Shown here piece by piece: positions 4,481 to 8,407 of a stretch of 64,000 nucleotides of DNA (position 1 is the first letter of the stretch; every line of letters starts with the position of its first letter). The DNA is taken from NCBI GenBank assembly GCA_021777225.1, contig JAJYDQ010000005.1, positions 1 to 64,000 on the forward strand. Reading direction: 5' to 3'. The position numbers and the translations under genes are program-made. Origin of the DNA: Deltaproteobacteria bacterium (GTDB lineage Bacteria > Desulfobacterota > Desulfomonilia > Desulfomonilales > Desulfomonilaceae). The notes under the pieces are model-generated. The model was not told the origin of the DNA. It saw only the letters and a list, made by a program, of their open reading frames with translations, and searched no databases.

Positions 4481-5950
4481 ATGTCGCTGGAATCTAAAAA
4501 AAGCCTTCTGAAAAATACTCTGGCTCTATCAATCCCTAGCGCTGTCAATCCATTTGTTTCCCTGGCCCTGGTGTATGTTGTTTCGAGAAGATTGGGCGTG
4601 GAAGGAATGGGGCAGTATTCTCTCCTCCTGTCATATCTGAACATTTTTACGACTGTCGCTTCATTAGGGCTGGGAGGGCTTATAGTCCGAGAAGTGGCTC
4701 GAAAACCTGAGGATGTCCACACACTCACAGGCAACGCCCTCCTTTTTGGTCTCGTTTCCAGTAGCATCGCCATGGTTTTAATGGATTTCGGGGTCACTTT
4801 TTTACGATATGACAATGAACTACTAACAGCCTTTTTGTTAGGTTCCGTAGCCCTTATTCCAGCGAGTTGCTCCCGATTTCTTGAGGCTAGCTTTCGGGCT
4901 ATTGAAAGGTCGGAATTCATAGCTTTGGGTCAGTTCATGGAAAATGTGTCCAAAGTGATTCTGTGTACGGCCGTTGTTTTGACCGGATATGGAATTGTGG
5001 CTATTTCCGCTATGACAGTGCTTACAAAGCTGCTGGCCCTGGGCTTGCTTCTGGTCTTCTACTTTAATGTTGTAGGCGTTTTTTCAATAAGATTTAAAAA
5101 AGATATTTGGACAATGCTATTTAGGGAAGCCCCAACATTCATGGGCATCGCCATTTTCTCCACCATACATTTAAATGTGGACATGATTTTGCTTTCGAAA
5201 CTAGCAGGCGTCTTGTCGGTGGGGATTTACGGGGCAGCCTTAAGAATTAATCAGATGTGCGTCATTGTTCCTATGGCCTTTTCTTTGGCTATACTGCCGA
5301 TATTTTCACGACATTTCGGTTATGGATTGGAAAGCCTGCGAGAGAAAACAGAACTTTCCATCCGCTATGTCCTGATAGTTTGTTTACCAATGGCCATAGG
5401 CATGATTCTTCTGGCCGACAAAGTCATCTTTCTGATTTATGGCAACAAATTTGCTCAGTCCGTTTTCATTCTGCAGCTCATGGCGCCTTCTTTGATCCCT
5501 TATAGTCTCGTATTGATACTTGCCCAAACGCTTATCGCAGCAAACCAGCAGGGGCTCGACATGAAAATTAATATGGTCGCCGCTGCCATGGCCACGGTCC
5601 TGAATTATATATTAATCCAACATTTTGCTGAGGTCGGGGCAGTGATGGCGAACATCATCACCATAGTAGCGTTTGTAATCCTCCAGCTTTTGTTCGTTAC
5701 TAAAAATTTGTTCCCGGTGCAACTTGTTCAGATATCGAAAAAACCGCTTTTAGCAGCGACTGGAATGGCATTTGTGACTTACTTGCTTCGTGAGTTTAAT
5801 ATGTTTTTAAATATTGTGATTTCAGCGGTAGCTTATTTCGCACTTTTGTTTTGCCTCAAAGGTTTGTATCCTGAGGAAATCGCGACGATAAAAAGTGTAG
5901 GGCAAAAAATTGGGCAACGCAGCTTTAATTATATCCGGCGCCGATTATGA
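4481..5950 (+). CDS. Polysaccharide flippase, Wzx/PST-type membrane protein
   Basis: 489 residues from the ATG at 4481. An in-frame upstream start at 4388 would add 31 residues inside the previous gene and is less likely, because MSLESKKSLLKNTLALSIPS begins just as flippases of this family usually do. About 12-14 hydrophobic membrane segments cover the protein, with the early signature RRLGVEGMGQYSLLLSYLN typical of the polysaccharide transporter/MATE-like superfamily. The predicted role is flipping of lipid-linked oligosaccharide across the inner membrane. The gene overlaps the downstream glycosyltransferase by 41 bases, indicating translational coupling. The ribosome binding site is weak. 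Confidence 0.82.
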   Translation: MSLESKKSLLKNTLALSIPSAVNPFVSLALVYVVSRRLGVEGMGQYSLLLSYLNIFTTVASLGLGGLIVREVARKPEDVHTLTGNALLFGLVSSSIAMVLMDFGVTFLRYDNELLTAFLLGSVALIPASCSRFLEASFRAIERSEFIALGQFMENVSKVILCTAVVLTGYGIVAISAMTVLTKLLALGLLLVFYFNVVGVFSIRFKKDIWTMLFREAPTFMGIAIFSTIHLNVDMILLSKLAGVLSVGIYGAALRINQMCVIVPMAFSLAILPIFSRHFGYGLESLREKTELSIRYVLIVCLPMAIGMILLADKVIFLIYGNKFAQSVFILQLMAPSLIPYSLVLILAQTLIAANQQGLDMKINMVAAAMATVLNYILIQHFAEVGAVMANIITIVAFVILQLLFVTKNLFPVQLVQISKKPLLAATGMAFVTYLLREFNMFLNIVISAVAYFALLFCLKGLYPEEIATIKSVGQKIGQRSFNYIRRRL

Positions 5951-7046
5951 TTCGGATTCTGCTTATCAGTACCGAATCAAGAAATTTGCAGAGCTTCTAG
6001 AAGAACACTCAATAGGATGTGATTTTCTTTTTACTTCTGAGGCCCTGCCTATTAAGAAAGTAACAACTTCATCGCTATTTATGCCGTTACGGTTGAATCA
6101 ACTTCGAAATTACAGATATATCTACTGTGGGGCGCCATTCGTAGGGCAGTCGCTATATTGGGTTCATAAACTTATTCCAGGTATTGTCACCCTGGATATG
6201 CATGGGGATGACATAGGTCAGTCGGCTCAAGCCAATCAGCTACGCTCAGGAGATCCTTCGGCAGGACCTTCTTTTCTGCATAAATTGCAGTATTACATGG
6301 CATTGCGCTCAGCGGATTATATCCTTACACAGTCTGAGTGGCATAAGGCCGACTTGGTTAAAGCTGGCGTCAAGCCTGACCGAGTCGGTGTAGTAAGAAA
6401 TGGGGTGGACCTTGAACTTTTTCGACCTTTACCTCAAGTGGAAAGCCCTAAATTTACATTTGGTTATGCGGGTGAATTCCAGACTTGGCAAGGCATAAAC
6501 GATCTCATATCCGCTTTCGAAATGGTTTCTGACCCCAAAATAACCATGTTGCTGATTGGTTTTAGAAATTCAGATCAAAGTGTCAAACAGATTTTTTCAG
6601 AAAAATTCGGCCATAGGGTTAAATTGGTAGACAGAACAGATCGAAAAACAATGCTTAACTTATTAGGGTCCGCCTCCATTCTTATTTCCCCCAGACCAAA
6701 CCACATAGCTTCAAGAGCGGCTTTTCCGGTTAAATTTGCGGAATATGCGGCGCTCGGTCGCCCAATTCTAGTTAATGACGTTGATGAAACAACTGACTTT
6801 ATTCATAGATATGAATGCGGATTCGTATCATCTCCCCCAGACCCTAAAAATCTTGCCAAGACAATGGAACTTGCCGCATTTACTCCACGGGATTTGTTGA
6901 TTCAAATGGGAATTAAGTCTCGCAAAATGGCTGAAGAGAATTTTTCATGGCCAAAGATCGGGGCCGGATACGCTACACTAGTAAAAAGCCTAATTGAAGA
7001 AACGCGCTCCAAAGATCTCAAAAAAACCGGACTTTTTCGAAAATAG
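5910..7046 (+). CDS. Glycosyltransferase, GT-B fold (family 4-like)
   Basis: 378 residues from a TTG at 5910 with AGGG about 10 bases upstream, overlapping the flippase gene. The N-terminal half holds the acceptor-side Rossmann domain (DMHGDDIG). The C-terminal half has the expected linker and nucleotide-sugar signatures: NGVDLELFRPLP near residue 166, GYAGEFQTWQGI, and PVKFAEYAALGRPILVND near 275. The first Glu of the usual E-x7-E motif is not evident (ASRAAFPVKFAE), while the second is present. It probably adds a sugar to the lipid-linked glycan handled by the adjacent flippase; donor and acceptor are unknown. Confidence 0.82.
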   Translation: MGNAALIISGADYDSDSAYQYRIKKFAELLEEHSIGCDFLFTSEALPIKKVTTSSLFMPLRLNQLRNYRYIYCGAPFVGQSLYWVHKLIPGIVTLDMHGDDIGQSAQANQLRSGDPSAGPSFLHKLQYYMALRSADYILTQSEWHKADLVKAGVKPDRVGVVRNGVDLELFRPLPQVESPKFTFGYAGEFQTWQGINDLISAFEMVSDPKITMLLIGFRNSDQSVKQIFSEKFGHRVKLVDRTDRKTMLNLLGSASILISPRPNHIASRAAFPVKFAEYAALGRPILVNDVDETTDFIHRYECGFVSSPPDPKNLAKTMELAAFTPRDLLIQMGIKSRKMAEENFSWPKIGAGYATLVKSLIEETRSKDLKKTGLFRK

Positions 7047-7065
7047 TCGGGCGTATACAAAATGA

Positions 7066-7098
7066 AACCGGGAGCTTCTTTTATGAAAACTCCCGGTT
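7066..7098 (-). terminator. Stem-loop terminator between convergent genes
   Basis: A perfect 9-bp inverted repeat, AACCGGGAG (7066-7074) and CTCCCGGTT (7090-7098), with a 15-base loop. Read leftward it is followed by a T-rich stretch (TTTCATTTT), so it best serves the short leftward gene at 7128-7211; it may also stop the rightward glycosyltransferase transcript. Confidence 0.6.
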
Positions 7099-7127
7099 GT
7101 TAGATTCATGGTAAAAATTCTTTTGGC

Positions 7128-7211
7128 TTACATGCCGGACCAGTCTTTTTTGTTACCAAACGCAAGCCACAATATAGCTGTACCTACGGAGACTAAAAAT
7201 AGAACCTCCAT
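7128..7211 (-). CDS. 27-residue single-pass membrane protein
   Basis: The ORF encodes 27 residues beginning MEVLFLVSVGTAILWLAF, a single hydrophobic span, followed by a charged tail (GNKKDWSGM). Expression signals are unusually good for so short a gene. There is a strong ribosome binding site, GGAGG, eight bases before the ATG. A near-consensus sigma-70 promoter lies just upstream (7235-7262), giving a leader of about 17 bases, and a hairpin terminator follows (7066-7098). Its neighbours on both sides are separate transcription units. I do not recognise the family. Small one-span proteins often bind and tune larger membrane proteins, but no partner can be named here. The complete set of signals is why I call it a gene. 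Confidence 0.65.
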   Translation of the reverse strand: MEVLFLVSVGTAILWLAFGNKKDWSGM

Positions 7212-7234
7212 GTCCCTCACCTCCAACTCTACAA

Positions 7235-7262
7235 AATATACGTGGCTTTTTATATATGTCAA
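7235..7262 (-). promoter_or_regulatory. Sigma-70-type promoter for the 27-residue protein
   Basis: On the minus strand TTGACA (7262-7257) is separated by 16 bases from TATATT (7240-7235). Transcription should begin near 7228, about 17 bases before the start codon. Confidence 0.6.
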
Positions 7263-7300
7263 CATGAAAATTAACGCGTTCTCACGAACTTATGAAAATC

Positions 7301-8407
7301 CTACAGTTGTCCTCCCATGGATTTCGCGTATCCGGTCAGTTCTACGTAGCCACTACCTCTGACAGGTTGATTTCCCACAATACCGGTAACCCTTGCGGCG
7401 CCTTCCCAATAACTTGTTTCGCCGCCCTTTTTGGCCGTAAGCTCCTGGTCCCTTATCGCAGGTACTATTTTCAATTTAAGTTTTTTTTCTGGGACTTCTA
7501 TTACCCATTCCAAAGGATATCTGGCTTTCGTGTGAGGACTTACCCAGAAATTTGTGGGTGTTATAGATATTGAATCTCCGGAGAGATGGACATAGTTACC
7601 CGATGAATCAACAAATGTCGCAAACGGCTTGTCGAAGGAACCATCCTGGTTGCGCAAATGGAAAGCCATTAACTCGGTTTTGTCATCAAATTGAATACTG
7701 AACCAATCCCAACCAACTTGGTCCTTGCTTAATATCGACGACCCAAATTCATGGTCCATCCACATCAGACCAGAGACCTGATGTTCTACCCCGTCGAACG
7801 ACAAGGTACCTTGGGCGCTAAGCCTTGTATATGAATAGTAATAGCTAGCTTGATTCATATCGCTTCCCTTAACACTGAACCCCTTGTCTCCGTGTAAAAC
7901 TACCGGTTTCTCAGGAGTGAGCGTTAAGTCTATCGCATAACGTTCTTCTTTTGCCTTTATCCGTATTTTTTCGCCATTCTGTGACGCGCTCCAATTCCTA
8001 ATATGCACATTTAAACTATCGTTAGCCGCGCCTGACAATCCCGGGCCCTTCCGTGAAATGATTTGGGTATGAAAAAATTTGTTGTCAGTGATATCTGTAA
8101 TAGCAAAATGAGCTGGATATAAATCTCTAACGCGCCACGTGGAACCATTTCTTGCAGGTTTTTTAAAAAGACCACGACGGAAGAATGTCAGTTGCGTTCC
8201 CCATTCATGATTTTTTGAAGCCAGGTTTCCTGTAAAATACCACCACTCGGTCTCAAAGTCCGGGTGTTTACCGTGATCACGAGGGAAAGTTATGGCTCTA
8301 TTTTGAGTCGCCTTTTCAAATTCATCGCAATATGAAAAACACGCGAACATTAGAAGAAAAAGGCCTAGTAATAGAAAACAAATTGCCAATCGACTGGAAA
8401 ATCTCAT
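7301..8407 (-). CDS. AttH/CrtC-like secreted lipocalin-type protein
   Basis: 368 residues with an N-terminal signal peptide (hydrophobic residues about 8-26). The segment HPDFETEWWYFTGNL (about residues 48-62) is the hallmark of the AttH/hydroxyneurosporene synthase-like family, which pairs two lipocalin-like beta-barrels; MWMDHEFGSS in the middle is another conserved element. Family members are exported and often annotated as predicted secreted hydrolases or carotenoid hydratases. No carotenoid genes are near, so the hydratase role should not be assumed. It is transcribed away from the HtrA-like gene, sharing a 160-base divergent promoter region. Confidence 0.8.
   Translation of the reverse strand: MRFSSRLAICFLLLGLFLLMFACFSYCDEFEKATQNRAITFPRDHGKHPDFETEWWYFTGNLASKNHEWGTQLTFFRRGLFKKPARNGSTWRVRDLYPAHFAITDITDNKFFHTQIISRKGPGLSGAANDSLNVHIRNWSASQNGEKIRIKAKEERYAIDLTLTPEKPVVLHGDKGFSVKGSDMNQASYYYSYTRLSAQGTLSFDGVEHQVSGLMWMDHEFGSSILSKDQVGWDWFSIQFDDKTELMAFHLRNQDGSFDKPFATFVDSSGNYVHLSGDSISITPTNFWVSPHTKARYPLEWVIEVPEKKLKLKIVPAIRDQELTAKKGGETSYWEGAARVTGIVGNQPVRGSGYVELTGYAKSMGGQL

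Follow-up and report, generated by a model that had tools for sequence, protein, structure and literature searches.

We conclude that a 27-codon open reading frame on the minus strand of the window (the whole 64,000-nucleotide stretch of DNA analysed here) is, by comparison with its orthologues, a genuine gene that has escaped annotation and is strongly conserved across the Desulfomonilaceae, a family of sediment bacteria. The pattern of substitution indicates strong purifying selection on the amino-acid sequence of the frame, and its predicted expression signals are conserved along with it. The product can be counted among the small single-pass membrane proteins (fewer than 50 residues), a broad kind, its membrane location being predicted, and, judged by searches of Pfam, NCBIfam, PDB and IMG/VR, it represents a new orphan family of such proteins.

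Architecture of the transcription unit

A sequence-only reading had proposed a promoter, ribosome-binding site, ATG, 27 codons, stop and hairpin within 7262–7066, and all of these parts were located on the minus strand. The unit comprises a −35 element TTGACA (7257–7262), a −10 element TATTTT after an 18-base spacer (7233–7238), the Shine-Dalgarno sequence GGAGGTGA (7217–7224), the gene with its stop codon, MEVLFLVSVGTAILWLAFGNKKDWSGM (7128–7211; ATG at 7211, codons to 7131, TAA at 7130–7128), and a terminator hairpin of 13 pairs (7066–7098) with a T-rich tail, followed by TCATTTTGTA. The promoter has 11 of the 12 consensus bases, and GGAGGTGA with a start codon 3–8 bases on occurs a single time when the whole 64 kb is scanned. 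The hairpin also lies directly beyond the end of the convergent glycosyltransferase gene. Shuffled versions of 7000–7420 contained on average 0.7 promoter-like and 0.5 terminator-like sites, against two and two in the real sequence. Together with the gene's recurrence in 12 of the 18 family genomes and its synonymous changes, this bears out the view that the unit carries more signal than chance would give.

The signals travel with the gene. TTGACA lies 50–57 bases 5′ of the start codon in all 12 orthologues, and a hairpin follows the gene in all 12; in 11 of them, at least five of the 12 bases beyond the hairpin are T. The Shine-Dalgarno sequence GGAGGTGA is kept in 11 of the 12 (the exception, L012, has GTGGGGAGAAGGG) and is embedded in TGGAGGTGAGGGA in most. 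The promoter had been read as TTGACA-N16-TATATT, and of this the −35 element stands while the −10 has to be moved. Two overlapping −10 candidates are present in the window, TATTTT (7238–7233) and TATATT (7240–7235). When the 12 upstream regions were aligned by anchoring on TTGACA, the next conserved bases were a T and an A at an 18-base spacer, each in 11 of 12; by reading, the “TA” of L010 lies at a 17-base spacer. Because the “TA” at 18 is conserved in 11 orthologues, we favor TATTTT as the −10 element. The upstream regions of L008, L010, L011 and L012 have a perfect −35 and a −10 that is poor except for its TA; poor −10 elements in several species may reflect an activator, another sigma factor, or a promoter carried by its −35.

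Elsewhere in the family, matches to the TTGACA...GGAGGTGA leader precede unrelated genes or none. A separate leader, TTGACA...AGGAGGTGA, was seen in two family genomes (L061, G014:C34:6382–6439, plus strand; L049, G015:C377:4172–4227, minus strand), where it precedes a similar, longer protein whose cysteine-rich start begins MVNHPEH or MANQQDH. A search of the window against Rfam at the gathering score returned two tRNAs only, with no match to an RNA family or leader at the 27-codon gene. Folding of the 12 predicted transcripts gave the ribosome site an unpaired probability of 0.00–0.50, a range that has no set of ordinary genes as control and within which the site is neither clearly open nor clearly closed. 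The first codons (7211–7185 in the window; also L003, L007 and L008) can form a hairpin in the closest species, for example GATACTA...TAGTATC in L007, which may be a codon coincidence or a means of translational control.

Purifying selection on the peptide

Conservation in relatives with synonymous substitutions had been named in the sequence-only reading as the check on the gene, and this is the pattern that we observed. The 12 orthologous peptides share 63–100% identity, and M1, L4, F5, S8, L14, W15, A17, F18, G19, K21, W24 and G26 are invariant in the 12 rows. Base changes between orthologues fall mostly at third codon positions, giving a mean pN of 0.139 versus a mean pS of 0.781 (ratio 0.18; 66 pairs, which are not independent). 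Orthologue L002, which comes from another genus, shows 21 changed bases without a single changed residue, an outcome that none of 20,000 random placements of 21 changes equaled. In-frame stops lie just upstream of the gene in G010 and G007, leaving open frames of 29 and 31 codons, and thereby fix the start codon.

Distribution among genomes

When 60 genomes, the window’s own among them, were searched in translation, 12 yielded full-length copies with E values of 1.7e-8 or lower, all from one family. With a profile built from these 12 rows, the peptide is found in 12 of 18 Desulfomonilaceae genomes, seven of the eight of good quality, and eight of 11 genera. Each carrier genome has one convincing copy; a second match in G009 (L040, E 0.0014) was rejected as a paralogue, as its tail is missing and it lies inside an unrelated 72-codon frame. 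The profile search left six family genomes without the peptide (G003, G005, G014, G015, G016 and G017). Absence from five of these says little because they are 82–86% complete. G014 is 99% complete and yields nothing at E up to 10, so the peptide is not indispensable to the family. The genus Desulfomonile is a member of the Desulfomonilaceae, and the second contig of G010 is identical to plasmid NC_018026.1 of Desulfomonile tiedjei DSM 6799 over the 10 kb tested. Since G010 carries the peptide (27 codons at G010:C1:2814906–2814986, minus strand), we infer that the gene is present in this cultured type strain.

Outside the family, the remaining 24 genomes of the class gave no credible match, a candidate at E 0.0016 being rejected for lying inside a 494-codon frame. 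Among 395 genomes drawn across the phylum, six match at E 0.01 or better, namely five Desulfomonilaceae and the chance match in the 494-codon frame, and 215 give some match when the limit is relaxed to E 5. We read 16 loci of weak matches from the phylum (E 0.001–5), picked mostly for short frames, 13 of them from the 395-genome draw, two from the translated search and one from the family profile search, and rejected them all: none combined a start codon, a ribosome site and a full-length match. Pfam gave no match to any of the 12 members with the E limit set at 10. The NCBIfam search returned PP0621_fam alone, for one of the 12 members at E 0.042, and the PDB profile search one match at E 1.6, both taken as chance; IMG/VR contains no match to the peptide. 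A global small-protein catalogue, according to the accessible part of its description, predicts frames from 30 nucleotides up (PMC11364881) and may hold the sequence. “Desulf” does not occur in the available portion of a paper on a finder of small membrane proteins (PMC10903887), and a search for literature on D. tiedjei small proteins or Desulfomonile Ribo-seq found nothing apparently relevant.

Genomic neighborhood

In the window, the gene lies between a convergent glycosyltransferase gene (5910–7046, plus strand), which is context outside the unit, and a co-directional upstream gene for a CrtC/lipocalin-type protein (7301–8407, minus strand; Pfam PF07143, PF17186). The glycosyltransferase neighbor (cluster 3) recurs in five of the 12 loci and is not conserved beyond the nearest relatives. 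The end of the CrtC-type gene is separated from the ATG by 89 bases, in which our scan of 7000–7420 found no terminator-like site, so that read-through from the CrtC-type gene is possible. In 10 of the 12 loci, a CrtC-type gene precedes the peptide gene in the same orientation, within 400 bases in nine and at 1.6 kb in G009; the G012 contig starts within the last codons of the CrtC-type gene. The peptide gene is elsewhere in G007 and G011, where CrtC is on another contig, and in G011 it stands beside the gene for ribosomal protein S2; with these different neighbors, TTGACA and the hairpin still accompany it. The unit had been described as independent of both neighbors; with no terminator-like site found between the two genes, its independence from the CrtC-type gene is only partly supported.

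In three genomes (G009, G010 and G013; L026, L028 and L029), the CrtC gene is adjoined by genes for an AAA/SMC-like ATPase of 1070–1100 residues and a phosphoesterase of the calcineurin type (clusters 10 and 11), a pair that we take to resemble the YhaN/YhaO type.

Predicted topology and proposed role

The expectation of one hydrophobic helix with a charged tail agrees with the hydropathy of the peptide: residues 3–19 have a mean Kyte-Doolittle value of 2.25–2.52 (hydropathy alone, computed for five of the 12 rows), preceded by an acidic residue and followed by two basic ones. At 17 residues, the span is rather short for a membrane helix. Under the positive-inside rule, an established principle of membrane topology, these flanking charges suggest an N-out, C-in orientation of the predicted helix. 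The most conserved stretch, LW.AFG.K..W.G, would then lie at about the level of the inner membrane face. No significant helical periodicity emerged when the conservation was tested by permutation (P about 0.5, three segments), and a one-sided packing face is therefore not demonstrated. Particular polar and aromatic residues (S8, W15, K21 and W24) are conserved beyond what hydrophobicity asks for, which appears to argue for specific contacts and favors a specific partner.

Packing of the predicted helix on a membrane partner is thus the most likely role that we infer. We give roughly even chances to the full proposal of a single-pass inner-membrane small protein, with its own promoter and terminator, that serves as an accessory helix on a membrane partner. 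Transcription would start at a sigma-70-type promoter of the gene’s own and end at its own terminator, with a near-perfect ribosome site for translation and possibly with additional expression by read-through from the CrtC-type gene. Residues 3–19 would cross the inner membrane so that the acidic N-terminus faces out and the K-K/R tail faces in. The invariant LW.AFG.K..W.G would form the docking surface that attaches the helix, as accessory subunit or regulator, to a single specific membrane partner whose gene is unlinked. Its mode of action could be in the manner of AcrZ, CydX/CydY (YnhF) or KdpF of other bacteria.

AcrZ is a small helix that modulates or stabilizes a large transporter, and KdpF is likewise a small accessory helix on a large transporter; for both, the likeness to the peptide is one of working only, not a demonstrated homology. 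As far as the excerpts of the sources go, CydX consists of one short helix with a cytoplasmic hydrophilic C-terminal part (PMC6853902, PMC4325964), and YnhF/CydY is a small subunit of bd oxidase encoded away from the operon (PMC6853902). Unlike CydX/YbgT, the peptide has no Pfam match, no link to cydAB and a different distribution, and it is not a member of that family by model or locus. More specifically, the peptide might serve a core Desulfomonilaceae membrane complex, respiratory or transport, as a family-specific orphan subunit or regulator encoded away from its partner’s operon, a tentative idea that we hold to be possible rather than probable. If it is correct, being encoded alone and off the partner’s operon would explain why such a subunit has been missed so far. 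Both cydA (18 of 18 family genomes) and COX1 (11 of 18) fail to track the distribution of the peptide.

Alternative explanations

Other readings assign the peptide no dedicated partner. It could be a stress peptide acting on the membrane as a whole, through fluidity, potential or lipid make-up, like YohP of E. coli, which is described in the accessible part of its source as a single helix of 27 residues (PMC12719787). The peptide equals YohP in length and in its one predicted helix, a resemblance short of demonstrated homology, and its gene is a stand-alone unit; however, twelve invariant positions, S8, W15, W24 and G26 among them, look too specific for a bulk effect, and we consider this reading unlikely. 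Type I toxins such as TisB, Hok and Lpt (the last of 29 residues) are short hydrophobic peptides with a charged end, encoded in stand-alone units. The peptide has the same build, and its predicted transcripts leave the ribosome site partly paired (a result that has no comparison with ordinary genes), as might suit a pore-forming or depolarizing peptide that an antisense RNA normally keeps silent. Unlike these toxins, it shows no antisense signal (no opposite-strand promoter-like site in 7000–7420, a scan that trans-encoded RNAs would lie outside), occurs once per genome, has no counterpart in IMG/VR and is strictly conserved across genera, its sequence being 100% identical between two of them, all of which makes a toxin improbable. 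A chance open frame, a leader peptide serving a gene downstream, or a small RNA in which the frame is incidental would agree with the shortness of the frame and the hairpin after it, yet each is contradicted by the pattern of synonymous substitution. A leader also fits poorly with downstream genes that differ between loci and, in the window, with a next gene that is convergent. We find these last readings scarcely credible.

Two further readings name a partner. A role with the adjacent CrtC/lipocalin-type protein or in its export would account for the co-directional CrtC-type gene upstream in 10 of 12 loci, but not for the separation of the two genes in G007 and G011, nor for G014, which keeps CrtC with nothing peptide-like within 1 kb after it. 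Nor do small hydrophobic frames follow CrtC in the 16 loci read for them (nine from other families, seven from Desulfomonilaceae; L114 and L145, read at offset coordinates, not counting), and we rate such a partnership as quite improbable. If it were a small subunit of cytochrome bd oxidase encoded apart from the cyd operon, the peptide would resemble E. coli YnhF, whose gene likewise lies outside that operon according to the part of the source at hand (PMC6853902). All 18 family genomes have cydA, and no hydrophobic small frame led by a Shine-Dalgarno sequence directly follows cydB (eight loci with a cydB-like frame among nine cydA loci), so the place of a small subunit beside cydB is not visibly filled. 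This makes a bd role possible but unsupported: two cydA genes are present in G014, which lacks the peptide, its cyd loci are equally devoid of a linked small gene, and no sequence relation to bd subunits is shown. The peptide gene adjoins none of the nine cydA loci read, and no cyd gene is among its scanned neighbors. We accordingly hold a bd subunit to be very improbable. At one locus of G014 (L154, G014:C276), a cydA-type gene without an adjoining cydB-like frame shares its contig with a COX1-type gene 1.5 kb away.

Implications

With 27 codons, the gene falls below the usual size limit and was established by sequence comparison alone. Peptide, promoter, ribosome site and terminator are conserved together across eight genera of one family, and presence of the gene in the cultured type strain D. 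tiedjei DSM 6799 opens it to experiment. As no Pfam or NCBIfam model covers it, the peptide would mark a component of the Desulfomonilaceae cell envelope outside the named families. Should it prove to be an orphan subunit, LW.AFG.K..W.G would be a new docking motif.
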